Positions 43,354 through 53,043 of a stretch of 64,000 bases of DNA are shown piece after piece. Each line of letters starts with the position of its first letter. Positions within the stretch are counted from its first letter, which is position 1. Under the pieces are notes generated by a model, which had not been told where the DNA came from, ran no database searches, and saw only the letters and a program-made list of their open reading frames with translations. The position numbers were made by a program, and so were the translations under genes. The DNA lies in assembly GCA_016191085.1 (NCBI GenBank), contig JACPPJ010000032.1, positions 1 to 64,000 on the forward strand. Direction: 5' to 3'. The DNA is from Acidobacteriota bacterium. Lineage in GTDB: Bacteria; Acidobacteriota; Terriglobia; 2-12-FULL-54-10.

Positions 43354-44166
43354 ATGACCAACCTATGGCTTTGGGTGTCACTGGGTCTTTATTCGCTGGG
43401 TCTCCTCCACGCCATCCTAACCGTCATTACGCGCCGCGAGAAGATGTTCCGCATCGGGCTTGCGGCGTTGTCGCTGGGAATCGTATTCCATCTGGTGGCG
43501 CTGGTGGAAGACGGGTTGGCTGTCGCGCATTTTCCCATAACCACTCCGGCCGAGGCGGCTTCGCTGGTCGGATTCGTGCTTGCGGGGGCCTTCCTGTTTG
43601 TTTACTGGCGCTATCAGTATCAGTCGCTGAGCGTTTTTGTTTTTCCGCTGGTGTTTGTGCTGACGCTAACGGGCGCGGTCGGGCAAGGTGGTGACGCTAC
43701 GTGGGGCTCTCCGCTGTTGCGCACGGCTTGGGTGTATATTCACGTCTGCCTCATTATCCTGGGCTACACCGCATTCTTTCTGACCTTCGCCGCGGGAGTG
43801 ATGTACCTGATTCAGGAGCATGAGCTTAAGTCGAAGACCCCGCGGGCATTTTATTACCGTTTGCCTCCGCTGGAAGTCATAGACGATCTGGCCTATAAAT
43901 CGCTCGCCATTGGCTTCCCTTTTATTACTCTGGGGATCATCACAGGCGCGGTGTGGGCCAGCACGGTATGGGGGCCGCGATGGCCGCTCGATCCCAAGGT
44001 GGCGCTCTCGCTGGTGAGTTGGTTTATTTATTTGTCATTGTTATTTACGCGATGGAGCGCGGGGTGGCGCGGGCGCAAAGCCGCCTACTTCGCAATCGCC
44101 GGATTCGCCGTGATTTTGGTGACCTGGGGCACCAACACCGGCATGCACTCGTTCGTCTCACCGTGA
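43354..44166 (+). CDS. CcsA/HemX-type cytochrome c assembly membrane protein
   Basis: The 270-residue protein has eight predicted membrane helices. It contains the WASTVWGPRWPLDPK segment, a variant of the tryptophan-rich WGxxWxWDPK motif of heme-handling proteins (CcsA, ResC, CcmC). Conserved histidines include VYIHVCL and the final GMHSF. It lies six bases before hemA, the place where many bacteria carry hemX, a CcsA-like protein that influences glutamyl-tRNA reductase levels. Either a HemX regulator or a cytochrome c synthase subunit is possible. No ccsB/ResB partner is present, which favours the HemX reading. Confidence 0.85.
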   Translation: MTNLWLWVSLGLYSLGLLHAILTVITRREKMFRIGLAALSLGIVFHLVALVEDGLAVAHFPITTPAEAASLVGFVLAGAFLFVYWRYQYQSLSVFVFPLVFVLTLTGAVGQGGDATWGSPLLRTAWVYIHVCLIILGYTAFFLTFAAGVMYLIQEHELKSKTPRAFYYRLPPLEVIDDLAYKSLAIGFPFITLGIITGAVWASTVWGPRWPLDPKVALSLVSWFIYLSLLFTRWSAGWRGRKAAYFAIAGFAVILVTWGTNTGMHSFVSP

Positions 44167-44172
44167 GCGCGT

Positions 44173-45441
44173 ATGAATTTTTGCCTGGTCGGCCTCAGTT
44201 ATAAGACTGCGCCCGTGGAAGTGCGGGAGCGCCTCGCCATCCCCGAGGAGCGTCTGCCCGAAGCACTGCATTCCGTGGTGTCGCTGCCCGGTATCGCCGA
44301 GGCTGTCATTCTTTCCACCTGCAACCGCGTAGAGGTATTTGCGCGCGCTGAGTTCAATGAGGCGAACGCGCCCTTGGCCCTCGGCGACTTCATGGCGAGC
44401 TTCCACGGACTCGATTATCACGACATCGTCCAGTATCTGTACCACTACCGGCAGCGCGAGGCGATCCGGCATATCTTCCGCGTGGCCAGCAGCCTCGATT
44501 CCATGGTGATCGGCGAGGCGCAAATACTGGGACAGGTGAAGGACGCCTACGCGCGCGCCCGAGCCGCAGGCACACTGGCAGGCGTTCTCGATGAAGTGAT
44601 GACGCGCTCGTTCGCCGTGGCGAAGCGCGTCCGCACAGAGACGGGGATTGCTTCGTCGGCGGTTTCCATCAGCTATGCGGCGGTGGAGCTGGCGCGCAAG
44701 ATCTTCGGGACGCTGGAGGGCAAGCACATACTGGTGATCGGGGCGGGGAAAATGAGCGAACTCGCCGCCAAGCACCTCATCAATAGCGGAGCCTCCAACA
44801 TACTGGTCACGAATCGCACGCCGGAGCGGGCGGAGGAAATGGCTGTTATGCTCCACGGCCGCGCTGTGCCGTTCGAGAAGCTGCTGGAATACGCTGCCAA
44901 ATGCGACATCGTCATCAGCTCCACCGGCGCGCCCGGATTTATTATTCGCAAACCGGACGCCCAACGCTTGCTCAGCGAGCGTCGCAACCGGCCCATGTTC
45001 TTCATCGATATTGCCGTGCCGCGCGATATTGATCCGGCAATCAACTCGCTTGACAACATCTTCCTCTATGACATTGACGATCTGCAAAAAGTTGTGGATG
45101 CCAATCTCAAAGAGAGGCTGCGCGAGGCGCAGCGGGGCGAGGAGATCGCCGAGCAGGAGCTTGAAAAGCTGGTCCGCCGTCTCAAGACTCTGGACGTGGT
45201 CCCGACCATTGTCGAGCTGCAGGGACATCTCGAACAGATTCGCATGCAGGAAATGGCGCGCTTGCAGTCGCAGTTCGGTCATCTGACTGAGCAACAGCGC
45301 GCCGCGATAGACATGCTGACCAAGGGCATGGTCAATAAAATCCTGCATGCCCCTGTCTCGCACCTGAAGCATCTCGCCCAGGAGCCGGATGGCTTGAAGG
45401 TAGTCGAAACGGTGCGAAAGATTTTCAACTTGAAGGAGTAA
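44173..45441 (+). CDS. hemA: Glutamyl-tRNA reductase HemA
   Basis: HemA reduces glutamyl-tRNA(Glu) to glutamate-1-semialdehyde, the first committed step of tetrapyrrole synthesis in the C5 pathway. The 422-residue protein starts FCLVGLSYKTAPVEVRERLA and has the nucleophile Cys50 in ILSTCNRVEVFA and VASSLDSMVIGEAQILGQVK. The NADPH-binding GKHILVIGAGKMSELAAKHL and the C-terminal dimerisation helices are also present. It lies between the HemX-like gene and hemC. AAGGAG at the end of the gene is the probable ribosome-binding site of hemC. Confidence 0.97.
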   Translation: MNFCLVGLSYKTAPVEVRERLAIPEERLPEALHSVVSLPGIAEAVILSTCNRVEVFARAEFNEANAPLALGDFMASFHGLDYHDIVQYLYHYRQREAIRHIFRVASSLDSMVIGEAQILGQVKDAYARARAAGTLAGVLDEVMTRSFAVAKRVRTETGIASSAVSISYAAVELARKIFGTLEGKHILVIGAGKMSELAAKHLINSGASNILVTNRTPERAEEMAVMLHGRAVPFEKLLEYAAKCDIVISSTGAPGFIIRKPDAQRLLSERRNRPMFFIDIAVPRDIDPAINSLDNIFLYDIDDLQKVVDANLKERLREAQRGEEIAEQELEKLVRRLKTLDVVPTIVELQGHLEQIRMQEMARLQSQFGHLTEQQRAAIDMLTKGMVNKILHAPVSHLKHLAQEPDGLKVVETVRKIFNLKE

Positions 45442-45446
45442 ACGCC

Positions 45447-46436
45447 CTGGAAAACTCTGCATTCACTCTGGCCACGCGCGGATCGGCGCTGGCGCTGACG
45501 CAATCGCACTGGGTCCAGGCGGAAATCGAGCGCACCGTCCCGGGCAGTCGTGTGGAGATTCTGACCATCCGCACCACCGGCGACAACATGGCTCATCAGC
45601 CGCTGCCGCAGATTGGGGGCAAAGGCCTCTTCACGAAAGAGATCGAGGATGCCCTCCTTGATCGCCGCGCGCATCTGGCCGTACACAGCCTCAAGGACCT
45701 GCCCACAGATCTTCCTGAAGGTTTAGTGCTGGCGTGTGTGCCAAGGCGCGAGGACTCCCGCGATGCTCTGATCAGCCGCACTGGAGCGCGGCTGAACGAG
45801 CTTCCACGAGGCGCGGTGATTGGCACCAGCAGTATCCGCCGCGCGGCGCAGTTGAAGCGCTTGCGGCCCGATCTGCGTATCGAGCCGCTGCGCGGAAATT
45901 TGGATACGCGACTGCGGAAGCTTCGCGAAACGGCGCTCGACGCAATCGTGCTGGCAGTGGCCGGGCTGCGGCGCATGGGACTCGATGCTGAGATCACAGA
46001 GATTTTGCCCGAGCAGATATTGTGCCCTGCTGTGGGGCAGGGAGCATTAGGGATCGAGGCCAGGGCCGATGACGCGCGCACGCTCAATGCGCTGGCCGCG
46101 CTAGAGGACGATTGGGCGCGGCTGACCGTGACGGCCGAGAGATCGCTCCTGAAAAGTCTTGGCGGCGGCTGCCAGATTCCGATAGCAGCCACCGTCGCCC
46201 GGCAGGACAATCGCATTAGCCTTACCGCCATAGTCATGCGGCCCGATGGCGGTGAGATGATCGCGATGGAAGAATTATCTACCTCCATTGCGAATTCCTC
46301 ACGGGCGGAGGCTATCTCGATTGCCGAGGCGCTTGGAAGGAAAACAGCGGAAAAACTGCTGGAGCTTGGAGCCGCCAGGCTTCTGGGAGAGGTGCCTGCT
46401 GGGCAACCGACCCTGCCCGCGCCTCAGGCGCCGTAA
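45447..46436 (+). CDS. hemC: Porphobilinogen deaminase (hydroxymethylbilane synthase) HemC, probable CTG start
   Basis: HemC joins four porphobilinogens into hydroxymethylbilane on a dipyrromethane cofactor. No ATG, GTG or TTG exists in frame before GTG 45552, but that start would remove the conserved TLATRGSALALTQSHWV. A CTG at 45447 has AAGGAG eight bases upstream (45433-45438) and restores the full 329-residue enzyme. With this start the catalytic Asp in HSLKDLP is residue 84 and the cofactor Cys in LGGGCQIPIA is residue 242, the same numbers as in the E. coli enzyme. Other motifs are GTSSIRRAAQL and RGNLDTRLRKL. It follows hemA by five bases, so it is co-transcribed. Confidence 0.93.
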   Translation: MENSAFTLATRGSALALTQSHWVQAEIERTVPGSRVEILTIRTTGDNMAHQPLPQIGGKGLFTKEIEDALLDRRAHLAVHSLKDLPTDLPEGLVLACVPRREDSRDALISRTGARLNELPRGAVIGTSSIRRAAQLKRLRPDLRIEPLRGNLDTRLRKLRETALDAIVLAVAGLRRMGLDAEITEILPEQILCPAVGQGALGIEARADDARTLNALAALEDDWARLTVTAERSLLKSLGGGCQIPIAATVARQDNRISLTAIVMRPDGGEMIAMEELSTSIANSSRAEAISIAEALGRKTAEKLLELGAARLLGEVPAGQPTLPAPQAP

Positions 46437-48562: not shown

Positions 48563-49027
48563 TCACGCCGCGCGTCGGTGAATCTGCTGTCCTTTAGTGC
48601 GGACTGCTTTGCGCGCCGCTGCGCGACGGTTCGCCGGGCCGCGTTCTCGCGCCGATGAACGTGCTTGCCGCGACAGTGCCTGATGAGATGCGGCTGAACG
48701 CCCTTCGCGCTTTAATGCGGTTCTTCTGGCTTGGGAACGCCGCGCTGAAGTCTTGGTTTGGCCCTTTTGCCCGCGCTCCAAATCGCGTTGCGCTTTTGCT
48801 CGGGTGGCTTGCGATGTTTTGCCTTCGCTCGGCGGGGGCAATTTCACGCCCGCTCGTCTGGCTTTCGAAAGTCCGATGGCGATTGCTTGTTTGGGGTTCC
48901 GCGCCCCGTGCTTGCCGCGCCGGATATGCTCCATCTCTTCTTTAACGAATTCACCGGCCTGGGTGCTTGGCGCCTTCCCCTGCCGCTTGTCCTTGCGGGC
49001 TCGTTCCAAAGTTCTCTTTTCTGGCAT
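48563..49027 (-). CDS. Small basic protein with a DUF6496-like core
   Basis: The 154-residue product is very rich in Arg, Lys and Ala. Its first 75 residues hold a conserved core, GEFVKEEMEHIRRGKHGARN followed by KQAIAIGLSKARRAGVKLPP, which resembles DUF6496 proteins. The rest is a low-complexity basic tail (ARRSQARRTALKREGRSAAS) that recalls histone-like or nucleic-acid-binding tails. ATG 49027 is fixed by GGAGGAG just upstream; a longer start would have none. Nucleoid or RNA binding is inference from charge. Transcription converges with the oxidoreductase gene only six bases away. Confidence 0.78.
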   Translation of the reverse strand: MPEKRTLERARKDKRQGKAPSTQAGEFVKEEMEHIRRGKHGARNPKQAIAIGLSKARRAGVKLPPPSEGKTSQATRAKAQRDLERGQKGQTKTSARRSQARRTALKREGRSAASHQALSRQARSSARERGPANRRAAARKAVRTKGQQIHRRAA

Positions 49028-49146
49028 GGTCTCCTCCGCGTGAATGTACAGTTGTTTAGATTCATCGCAGTTGGTGGCGGAGCGCATGCAATGCACGCAA
49101 TAACAGATCGCCTTGAAAGAGACGCTACGGCTGAATGGTATTGGCA

Positions 49147-49152
49147 TATAAT
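49147..49152 (+). promoter_or_regulatory. -10 box (TATAAT) before the hibernation-factor fusion
   Basis: GGCATATAAT lies 134 bases before ATG 49286, with no -35 box at a normal distance. The leader has no other gene. Confidence 0.35.
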
Positions 49153-49285
49153 GAAGTTGTGGAACGGAGTTGCACGCATGTGCTTAAATCCGGCAGTTGC
49201 CATGGCCGCATTTCTTCATCCGCACGCTTCAGCTTGCAGGTCCCCTTTTCTGCGATTCTAATAAAGTCACTTCAGGAGCCGTACC

Positions 49286-50188
49286 ATGCAAGTACACTTC
49301 AGTTATCAGCACGGTTCTCCCCATCAGGAATTAGAAAAAATCATTGATATGCACATACGTAAACTTGAGAAGTTGCTGGTCCGCTTTTCTCCAGACCTGG
49401 TGCATTTACATGGGGTAGTCGAGTTTGGCACGCCCAAATCGGGTACGGGTTGTTCATTGAACTTGTGGTTGCCCACGGCGCGGATACATGCCAGGGAGCG
49501 GGGCAAGGACGTTCCGGCAGCACTGCGGGCCTCTTTTGAACACATTGAAGACCAGTTGAAAAAGCACAAGGAAGTGCTCCGCCGCGAGGGGGAATGGAAA
49601 CGCAAACGATACCGTGGGGAACGTGAAGAGGCGAAAGCGCAGGAAGGTGAGCTGCGGGTTCAGGACCGGCAGCAAGTACGCGAATACCTCGACCAGGTGC
49701 TTCCACAGTTGCGAATCTTTATTCAACGCGAAATTAGATTTCAGGAATTGAGCGGCACGTTGGCACCTGGAGCAGTGCAAGAAGAAGAGATCGTCAACGA
49801 GGTTGTAGCCTCGGCACTCGAAAATCACAAGGGCTTCTCCGATGAGCCCGCGCCTTACCACATATTGCTAAGGGACGCGATTCACGCCCTCAATGGTGCG
49901 CTGCCCAGGGTTGAGTCGGCTTCCCGGCAGGCTGCCAGCGACTCAGGCGACTATGCAGTCACGGCAGAAACCGATCCGGTGGACGCGTTTCTGGCGTTGT
50001 TGCCGGCAAAGAAGCGACAGATATACGTTCTCCACGCGCTCGAGGGGTTCACGTTCGATGAGGCTGCTCAGGTACTAGGTCAGTTGCCCAGCGAAGTCGA
50101 AGAGGCGTTTCGAGAAGTGAGCCGCGAGGTCTCCGCAGCCATTCAGGGTACCCGGTCTTCCGGCACGGCACCAAAGCGTTCAGCATAG
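49286..50188 (+). CDS. HPF/RaiA ribosome-hibernation domain fused to a sigma-70-like domain
   Basis: Residues 1-100 match the HPF/RaiA (sigma-54 modulation) fold that occupies the 30S decoding site in stationary phase: VHFSYQHGSPHQELEKIIDM, LHGVVEFGTPKSGTGCSLNL, ARERGKDVPAALRASFEHIE. A charged linker (100-135) follows. The second half then resembles an ECF sigma factor: a region-2-like IVNEVVASALENHKGFSDEP and a region-4-like LLPAKKRQIYVLHALEGFTF-DEAAQVLGQLPSEVEEAF helix-turn-helix. In long HPF the C-terminal domain is a dimerisation domain; here it is replaced. ATG 49286 has AGGAG seven bases upstream. A hairpin at 50200 ends the unit. The fusion could couple ribosome state to transcription, which is inference. 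Confidence 0.85.
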   Translation: MQVHFSYQHGSPHQELEKIIDMHIRKLEKLLVRFSPDLVHLHGVVEFGTPKSGTGCSLNLWLPTARIHARERGKDVPAALRASFEHIEDQLKKHKEVLRREGEWKRKRYRGEREEAKAQEGELRVQDRQQVREYLDQVLPQLRIFIQREIRFQELSGTLAPGAVQEEEIVNEVVASALENHKGFSDEPAPYHILLRDAIHALNGALPRVESASRQAASDSGDYAVTAETDPVDAFLALLPAKKRQIYVLHALEGFTFDEAAQVLGQLPSEVEEAFREVSREVSAAIQGTRSSGTAPKRSA

Positions 50189-50745: not shown

Positions 50746-53043
50746 CTACGTTTCAATTCTCAAGAACAGATACAGACCGCCTAATCCGAATACCAGGTTC
50801 GGCGACCAAGCCGCGGCGACGGCTGACAACTCGTTCAGGTTGCCGAGTGCTTCAAAGAGGCTACTGACAGCCCAATACACGATAGCAATGCCGATGCTCA
50901 GCGCAATCCCGGTGAGAGCGCCTTTTTTCCCGACTGAAAATGCAAACGGCATCCCGATCAGCGCCATGATGAACGCAAAAAGCGGGAAGGAAAACTTCTT
51001 GTGAATTTGCACCGTGAGAGGTACAACATCAAAACCGCTCTGCTTCAAATCCTGTAAATACGCCCGCAGTTGAATGAAGTTCATCTGCGATGACTGTTTC
51101 ACTTCTTTCCGGAAGTAGGACGGATCTTCGCGCAATTCGGGGAACAGCCGTACTTGAAAGTTCTCATAATCCTGCAGATTGTCATTGCGTAGATCACGTA
51201 CCCAGCCGTCCTCAAATACCCATCCACCGAGCGACTGTTCCCAGACCGCGCGGCTGGCTGAGATGCGCCGCGTTAACTGAAAGGTCTGGGGATCCAACTC
51301 GAAAACCGTTACGCCGCCCAGAACCCGCTCGGCCGGATCAAAGACTTTGTAGTAATAAATCCACGAACCTTTGCCGAACATCCACTGCCGGTCGGGACGG
51401 TAAAACGTCTGTGCCGGACGGCCTTTGATGCGGTTGCGGATAGCGTCCTGGATTTGATTCGACCCCGGTACATAAAAATGGTCGAAAAAGAACATTCCGG
51501 CGCTGAGCAAACCAGAGATGAGAAACACGGGAAGACTGAGCCGATACAGGCTGATCCCTGAAGCCTTCATAGCCGTGATCTCGTTCCGCTGCGTCAGCAG
51601 GCTGAAGCTGATAAGGATGGCGAGCAGCACGCTCAACGGGGTTGTCACGTAGATCAGTTGAGGCGTCAGATGTATGAAGTAATCGACGACTAGACCGATT
51701 GGGATCTCATTACGTATGACGTCGTTCAGCAGATCGACGAAGAAGCTGACTACCTCCGTGAGAACAATGAGTGCTGCAAGCGTGACTACCAGGTAAAACA
51801 AAAAGAGCTTGGTGATATAGCTATCGAGAATGAGCGGGAAAGTTGAGAGTCTGCGGTTTGCAGCGCCTGCCGCGCCTCCCTTCCGCGCGAACAGAGCAGA
51901 CACTCGCCGCTTCAGCGACTCCATCAGCTCAGATAAATATGTGATCCACCCGAACCATGGCGTTACGGCATCCACCCTTGCGATCAAGAAAGCTCCCAAG
52001 GCGGCAAAGAATACGTTGGCCATCCACACTCCCGTCCAAGGTGGCAGCCAGCCCTGGCGCGCAAGGCTGATGCCGCCGATGAACAGCGAGTAATAGATCA
52101 GCACGATCAGAACCGCGAGCACCACACCCGTGGACTTGCCACCGCGGCTGGACGACAGGCCTAACGGGATTCCCGCCAGCGCAAACACTATGGACGCGAG
52201 TGGAATCGCGATTCGGCGATGAAACTCGATGCGTGCCTCGATCCACTGCGGATCGGATCGTGGAGCGTTATAAAGATCAGCCGTTGAACGCTGCGCATTC
52301 GGCTTGACGGAAGTAGGCGGTGGCGGAGGCATCTCGATGGGAATGTCGGTCTCGGAAAAATTGGCCACCGAATACTCGTTCTTGTCGGGCGAGACTTCGT
52401 GAATGTTTCCTCGCGCCAGGTGAAGCTGCAGTTGGTTCTGAGCCGAGTCGCTCATCAGCATGCCCTCTTGCGCAATCGTTATCTTCGGGCCTGCCGGATT
52501 CGATACATCTGCCAAGAACACTCCTCGCCATGCGGGATTAGGCCCGCTAATTACATCTTGCACATAGACGACGAGGTTGGGAAGATTCTCTTCGAAGACA
52601 CGCGGCCTCACCGTCGCAGAGATGTGCCGCAGACCAATTTCCCGCTCGATTTGCACGCGCATTCGATTTGCGGATGGAGCTGCCCAGACGGACAGCCACA
52701 ATGCAAGAGCGCATCCCAGCAAAGCGAACAGCCCTAGTGGAAGCAAGAATGAGCGTACGCCCATGCCGGCTGCACGCAGCGCTACAACCTCCCCTTCGCT
52801 TGCCATACGGCTTAGCGTAATTAATATTCCGATTAAGATTGCCACCGGAACAGTAAAATTCAGCAACGCTGGGAACGACAGCAGAAACAAGGACGCGATA
52901 CTGCGTGCGAAAGCACTTTCGCGTAAGAGAAGTTCGATCAGCCGGTTGGTGTCTCGCAGAAACAGCACGAATGTGAACAGAAGAAGCCCGAGCAGTGCAT
53001 GAGACAACGTCTCTTTCAAAATCTGCCGGTGGAGAATTCGCAC
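50746..53043 (-). CDS. lptFG: LptF-LptG fusion, LPS-export permease in one chain
   Basis: The 765-residue protein contains two complete YjgP/YjgQ-type permease units. The first (about 1-365) starts ILHRQILKETLSHALLGLLL, has the coupling-helix motif VALRAAGMGVRSFLLPLGL, a periplasmic beta-jellyroll and IPLASIVFALAGIPLGLS. The second (about 400-765) starts LDSYITKLFLFYLVVTLAAL and has ITAMKASGISLYRLSLPVFL, another jellyroll and FPLFAFIMALIGMPFAFSVG. LptF and LptG are normally separate chains that pair with LptB ATPase to extract LPS from the inner membrane. The linker (365-400) is Ala/Arg-rich. No stop or frameshift separates the halves. No other lpt gene is adjacent. Confidence 0.92.
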   Translation of the reverse strand: MRILHRQILKETLSHALLGLLLFTFVLFLRDTNRLIELLLRESAFARSIASLFLLSFPALLNFTVPVAILIGILITLSRMASEGEVVALRAAGMGVRSFLLPLGLFALLGCALALWLSVWAAPSANRMRVQIEREIGLRHISATVRPRVFEENLPNLVVYVQDVISGPNPAWRGVFLADVSNPAGPKITIAQEGMLMSDSAQNQLQLHLARGNIHEVSPDKNEYSVANFSETDIPIEMPPPPPTSVKPNAQRSTADLYNAPRSDPQWIEARIEFHRRIAIPLASIVFALAGIPLGLSSSRGGKSTGVVLAVLIVLIYYSLFIGGISLARQGWLPPWTGVWMANVFFAALGAFLIARVDAVTPWFGWITYLSELMESLKRRVSALFARKGGAAGAANRRLSTFPLILDSYITKLFLFYLVVTLAALIVLTEVVSFFVDLLNDVIRNEIPIGLVVDYFIHLTPQLIYVTTPLSVLLAILISFSLLTQRNEITAMKASGISLYRLSLPVFLISGLLSAGMFFFDHFYVPGSNQIQDAIRNRIKGRPAQTFYRPDRQWMFGKGSWIYYYKVFDPAERVLGGVTVFELDPQTFQLTRRISASRAVWEQSLGGWVFEDGWVRDLRNDNLQDYENFQVRLFPELREDPSYFRKEVKQSSQMNFIQLRAYLQDLKQSGFDVVPLTVQIHKKFSFPLFAFIMALIGMPFAFSVGKKGALTGIALSIGIAIVYWAVSSLFEALGNLNELSAVAAAWSPNLVFGLGGLYLFLRIET

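Follow-up and report, generated by a model that had tools for sequence, protein, structure and literature searches.

The gene at positions 49,286 to 50,188 (+ strand) of the window, by which we mean the whole 64,000-nucleotide stretch of acidobacterial DNA analysed, encodes a protein of 300 amino acids in which an HPF/RaiA (S30AE) ribosome-hibernation domain is followed in the same chain by a module with the fold of an ECF sigma factor. We consider it slightly better than an even bet (probability about 0.55) that the protein is a hibernation factor carrying a retired ECF-sigma module as a protein-docking arm, and not a working sigma factor.

HPF and RaiA dock in the mRNA/tRNA channel of the 30S subunit, and by analogy the HPF domain of the fusion most likely docks in that channel of idle ribosomes. 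The retired module would stand in place of the dimerisation domain. Its sigma2 and sigma4 folds persist without the residues for reading -10 and -35 elements, which suggests that it now serves as a docking arm. The likeliest use of such an arm would be to link the transcription machinery to the idle state of ribosomes, with the arm either gripping core RNA polymerase or acting as a sigma mimic towards a sigma-binding regulator. We infer ribosome binding from family membership, and likewise which partner the arm would hold and in which direction regulation would run. The commonest setting is an operon with the Balon-like gene baeRF10 in Terriglobia or a stress-survival island in Proteobacteria, and the wide distribution, this operon and the island link point to hibernation as the core function.

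To our knowledge, translation shutdown and transcription reprogramming are linked mainly through small molecules. A hibernation domain and a sigma fold in one protein could be a direct physical link between translation and transcription, testable in ordinary laboratory bacteria, as Methylorubrum extorquens AM1 has a relative on a megaplasmid. Both halves are familiar; what appears to be new is their combination, its wide occurrence and the assignment of orf11 given below. No description of an HPF-sigma fusion was found in the open-access main texts searched.

Gene and domain architecture

The open reading frame is complete (300 codons), and direct reading places a probable Shine-Dalgarno site, AGGAG (49,274 to 49,278, + strand), a few bases 5' of its ATG; homologues are also preceded by GAGG-type sites. 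Full-length relatives with 45-50% identity preserve the architecture, so that a chance frame, an oddity of the window alone and an assembly chimera were ruled out. The AlphaFold2 model, built from 44 homologues, has a mean pLDDT of 83. Values are about 90 or higher in the HPF domain and most sigma-like helices (the latter mostly above 85), and residues 108-123 and 209-226 are disordered.

The HPF/RaiA domain comprises residues 1-100 (49,286 to 49,585, + strand) with the order beta-alpha-beta-beta-beta-alpha. Residues 4-98 match Ribosomal_S30AE (PF02482; E=2.1e-7) with 32.0 bits, above the cut-off of 23.7, and pLDDT in this half is about 89-98. In the Foldseek ranking against the PDB, HPF structures come out on top, among them E. 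coli HPF (2rql, TMt 0.86, rmsd 1.9) and 4hei (TMt 0.87). The domain is thus confirmed where the initial annotation had placed it. It shares with HPF/RaiA (YfiA) the fold, a Pfam score above the cut-off and a conserved basic C-terminal helix with invariant H-K..L-R, but its chain runs on into sigma2- and sigma4-like domains instead of the dimerisation domain of long HPF. The absence of the latter, also foreseen from the sequence, is borne out: S30AE_C (PF16321), matched in 15 of 29 genomes searched, has no match in the window protein or in the whole window genome. There the fusion is the sole S30AE protein detected (assembly 88% complete), and in five of six relatives of the window's family the fusion or a short form is likewise the sole one. 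Terriglobales carriers of the fusion additionally have a canonical long HPF, so that a substitute for dimerisation is unneeded there; replacement of long HPF by the fusion was rejected except, at most, in the window's family.

A charged linker of low confidence follows (residues 101-127, 49,586 to 49,666, + strand; pLDDT below 50 at 108-123). Residues 128-205 (49,667 to 49,900, + strand) form a three-helix bundle resembling sigma region 2. It has no Pfam match of its own; the ECF superfamily model TIGR02937 covers residues 137-271 with no more than 22.9 bits, short of its cut-off of 42.9, the part aligns with true ECF region 2, its three helices are modelled confidently, and Foldseek agrees. 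The linker between the sigma2- and sigma4-like parts (residues 206-229, 49,901 to 49,972, + strand) is disordered in the model and, by comparison with other linkers, has no QPDE motif. The region-4-like helix-turn-helix occupies residues 230-291 (49,973 to 50,158, + strand), where the model agrees with matches to Sigma70_r4_2 (PF08281; residues 232-265, E=1.8e-7, 31.1 bits against 25.7) and PhyR_sigma-like (PF22233; residues 237-283, E=4.9e-7, 29.9 bits against 27).

With Foldseek the C-terminal half matches SigW (TMt 0.68), CnrH (TMt 0.69) and the sigma-like domain of PhyR in its complex with NepR (2lfw, TMt 0.62). The comparison with ECF sigma factors proposed in the initial annotation therefore finds a sigma fold, the profile search of the same half finds sigma families above their cut-offs, and the two sigma-like segments described there, as well as their fusion to an HPF domain in one chain, hold on the evidence of Pfam, the sub-cut-off TIGR02937 match, the helices of the model and the fold matches of both halves.

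The likeness to PhyR raises the reading that the sigma-like half acts as a mimic which sequesters an anti-sigma factor and frees a stress sigma, with ribosome binding by the HPF domain as the gate; this special case of coupling to transcription we regard as unlikely. The PhyR sigma-like domain has also lost its DNA-binding residues, and the sigma half of the fusion resembles it in lacking residues that read DNA. In the window clade no sigma4 model outscores PF22233; for the window protein itself the highest scores of the sigma4 half are those of PhyR models (NF006623, E=1.9e-8; PF22233, E=1.9e-7), and the fold match to 2lfw fits as well. Against it, the PhyR scores lie under the NCBIfam cut-off, and Terriglobales and most tested proteobacterial members score better against Sigma70_r4 models. 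Unlike PhyR, the window protein has no receiver domain among its Pfam hits, and NepR was found in 0 of 35 acidobacterial genomes, with a positive Caulobacter control.

Promoter-reading and core-facing residues

By alignment, 29 fusions were compared with 20 ECF sigma factors from five related genomes. The mean net charge of regions 2.3-2.4 is -0.45 in the fusions and +3.8 in the ECF sigmas (Mann-Whitney p=1e-8), and that of the 4.2 recognition helix is 0.07 against 2.7 (p=3e-6), both p values being indicative in view of shared ancestry. None of the 29 fusions is at or above the ECF median in either segment. The basic 2.4 patch is missing in all fusion groups, including the window protein; the 4.2 helix is still mildly basic in Terriglobales members (+1.1), and in the window protein the recognition helix, PSEVEEAFREVS, is acidic with a net negative charge. 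The expectation of the initial annotation that region 4 would read -35 elements thus finds no support, and the sigma half appears, on these alignments, to have no basic promoter-reading surfaces any more.

The core-facing 2.2 helix is equally acidic in both groups (-2.45 in the fusions, -2.85 in the ECF sigmas), and the window bundle retains this character. Two positions of the helix which are invariant in the ECF sigmas (Q in 20/20 and F in 20/20) are replaced in every fusion, by D/N/G and I/V/L respectively; the window protein has N and V. Core binding is therefore possibly lost too, which counts against the docking-arm reading. Compared with SigW, CnrH and SigE, the fusions share the helical sigma2 and sigma4 folds, the acidic 2.2 helix and the sequence of region 4.1, but have an insertion of about 10 residues in sigma2 and an HPF domain in front, along with the replaced Q and F and the lost basic residues of 2.4 and 4.2. 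An effect on transcription, if there is one, may run only through sigma mimicry or docking on RNA polymerase, and the sigma fold may instead be used on the ribosome.

That the protein is a working ECF sigma under HPF control, silent on ribosomes and transcribing stress genes when free, seems to us very unlikely. In its favour, the RefSeq name of members from Proteobacteria is 'sigma-70 family RNA polymerase sigma factor', one Terriglobales relative exceeds the TIGR02937 cut-off with 48.9 bits, and the Terriglobales helix is mildly basic. The loss of the 2.4 patch in every group, the absence of any fusion at the ECF median, the net negative window helix and the low TIGR02937 score of the window protein speak against it.

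Distribution and gene neighbourhoods in Acidobacteriota

The first close relatives came from Terriglobales and from two genomes belonging to the window's family. A scan with an alignment-based profile gave 116 relatives, of which 80 were kept as named loci, whereas a single-sequence scan gave none. Nearly all 80 are full-length fusions of about 346 amino acids from acidobacterial metagenome-assembled genomes, and the fusion is present in about 78 named Terriglobia contigs. Across 299 genomes of the class it occurs in f1, f15 and part of family f9, with an HPF-only form in f6, f10, f11 and some members of f1. At E<=1e-20, 11 of 199 genomes of the phylum gave matches, seven of them outside the class; the six of these that were inspected are all fusions with the same linker motif. 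The fusion, for which the initial annotation had suggested a survey of other Acidobacteriota, thus recurs in Terriglobia and patchily in other acidobacterial classes. Among the members of other classes, an aminotransferase-like gene (assigned by eye) abuts or overlaps the fusion gene downstream at L182 and L183.

The linker motif QPDE/QPDD is present in 73 of 78 Terriglobia loci and also in members from other acidobacterial classes and Proteobacteria, and in 0 of 20 ECF sigmas. Being common to the fusions and absent from the ECF sigmas, it argues for a single origin of the HPF-sigma fusions. The motif is conserved across phyla yet unstructured in the AlphaFold2 model of one homologue (L047, residues about 245-248), which gave no clue to what it does. 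Both halves are under similar purifying selection, with dN/dS in Terriglobales (114 pairs) of 0.103 for the HPF half and 0.115 for the sigma half.

In the HPF-domain tree, the window's family f1 intermixes fused and HPF-only members, with weak support inside the clade, which makes repeated loss of the sigma half probable there. Its absence from relatives in this family indicates that it is dispensable in f1, a point against the docking-arm reading. HPF-only forms of the same HPF subgroup, 110-170 amino acids long, were seen in G003-G006, G011, G026, G033 and G039 (e.g. L005, L009, L013-L018), and one HPF-only form (L012 in G015) still has baeRF10 downstream.

At 67 of 73 testable Terriglobia fusion loci, a baeRF_family10 gene of about 400 codons lies directly downstream on the same strand, usually after 0-60 nt. 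Pfam assigns eRF1 domains to this neighbour, which we take to belong to the eRF1-like group that includes the hibernation factor Balon. One relative from the window's family (G001) has the same arrangement; at the proteobacterial and other acidobacterial members examined outside Terriglobia no baeRF10 neighbour was present. Balon is described as binding the A site together with RaiA, with genes that most often adjoin raiA and also have alternative sigma70 factors and HdeD among their neighbours (PMC10901736). Relatives of the window gene resemble these operons in sitting directly upstream of baeRF_family10; they differ in that the accessible part of that report names sigma70 and RaiA as separate neighbours, and the window has no baeRF10.

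The close association with a Balon-like gene in Terriglobia is among the points in favour of a purely ribosomal role, in which the sigma fold would bind rRNA, a ribosomal protein, baeRF10/EF-Tu or a second copy of the protein, in the last case standing in for the dimerisation domain, without any contact to transcription. We rate this role as possible but doubtful. Precedent comes from archaeal HibA, where an HPF domain is fused to a CBS module contacting the large subunit (PMC13324472), so that HPF is again joined to a second module other than the dimerisation domain; there, however, that module is of another kind and the protein comes from a different domain of life. The lost promoter-reading residues, the replaced Q and F, and the fusion or short form as sole S30AE protein in five of six family relatives would suit this role too. 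It fits less well with the canonical long HPF in Terriglobales carriers, with region 4.1 and an acidic 2.2 helix that remain sigma-like, and with the members that have no baeRF10 beside them.

The window copy is atypical in having no baeRF10 neighbour, no QPDE linker and an acidic recognition helix. No baeRF10 was found in the window or in the window genome (G000), which also weighs against the docking-arm reading, and QPDE/QPDD is missing as well from L021 and L022, the fused relatives nearest to the window protein. A decaying relic, the window copy losing its function along with linker motif, partner and basic helix, would account for these absences and for sister genomes without the sigma half. 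We nevertheless think it very unlikely, because identity among the window protein, L021 and L022 is 50-58% in the sigma2/sigma4 parts, no lower than the 50-53% of the HPF half, the reading frame is intact and dN/dS in the wider family is about 0.1.

Neighbours of the window gene encode an FAD oxidoreductase, a DUF6496 protein, a cupin and LptF/G proteins. The protein with the DUF6496 match (48,563 to 49,147, - strand) is basic and rich in lysine and arginine; its gene immediately precedes the fusion gene and runs in the opposite direction. At 50,746 to 53,043 (- strand) LptF and LptG are apparently joined in one chain of 765 amino acids, in which PF03739 matches two stretches. An E. coli-like lpt-rpoN-hpf context through these genes was considered and rejected, as they lie on the opposite strand and the neighbour shared by the relatives is baeRF10. 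Farther away, a glutamyl-tRNA reductase gene (44,173 to 45,441, + strand) overlaps a long open reading frame (44,158 to 45,462, - strand) without any match in Pfam, probably a shadow frame.

Proteobacterial members and orf11

Outside Acidobacteriota the analysis covered plasmid and E. coli collections. Plasmid records contain the fusion in Alpha- and Betaproteobacteria, where annotations include 'FliA' besides the sigma-70 name given above; this suggests that some genes labelled as sigma factors in databases are not sigma factors. The acidobacterial and alpha/beta profiles match over the whole length (E=6.8e-38). In Paracoccus, Roseomonas and Shinella the fusion gene follows marR, ftsH and an AAA ATPase gene, with hdeD next or one gene on. 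In E. coli, Klebsiella, Acinetobacter and Pseudomonas fragi a 381-residue 'hypothetical protein' is encoded directly after hdeD (DUF308 in P. fragi), and trx-GI comes next, Acinetobacter excepted. This position is that of orf11 in the published gene order of the tLST (PMC8290217). The tLST/LHR neighbours clpK, hdeD, trx and kefB were not found beside the window gene.

Full-length matches of the gammaproteobacterial (orf11) proteins reach E=2.5e-30 against the alpha/beta profile and E=1.6e-15 against the acidobacterial one, and these proteins have the QPDD linker; their HPF half alone is below the Pfam cut-off. Judged by the profile match, the linker and the island position beside hdeD, orf11 of the enterobacterial tLST/LHR (PMC8290217, PMC8407380) is a diverged member of the HPF-sigma family, albeit one very diverged from the window protein. 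This gives a so far unexplained gene of the island for heat and chlorine tolerance its first family assignment. In LHR2 orf11 is broken by an orfC-orfD insertion (PMC5383660), and for its deletion in E. coli MG1655 lacZ::LHR no heat, chlorine or oxidation defect is reported (PMC8407380), a further point against the docking-arm reading. A 'sigma 24 like' factor of the Methylobacillus island appears in the tLST review, with no HPF domain mentioned in its accessible part (PMC8290217).

A broader proposal, which we put forward tentatively and hold less probable than the docking-arm reading itself, is that the HPF-sigma proteins are a class of hibernation factors not described before and spread horizontally, which would provide a physical link from idle ribosomes to the machinery of transcription, be it core RNA polymerase or a sigma/anti-sigma switch, with orf11 as its diverged member, and that some of the 'alternative sigma70' genes adjoining Balon genes are HPF-sigma genes.

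One orf11 locus (L142, 9,001 to 10,146) is annotated 'hypothetical', and the locus was also seen in E. coli genomes; of 5426 complete genomes of that species, 152 contain orf11 DNA.
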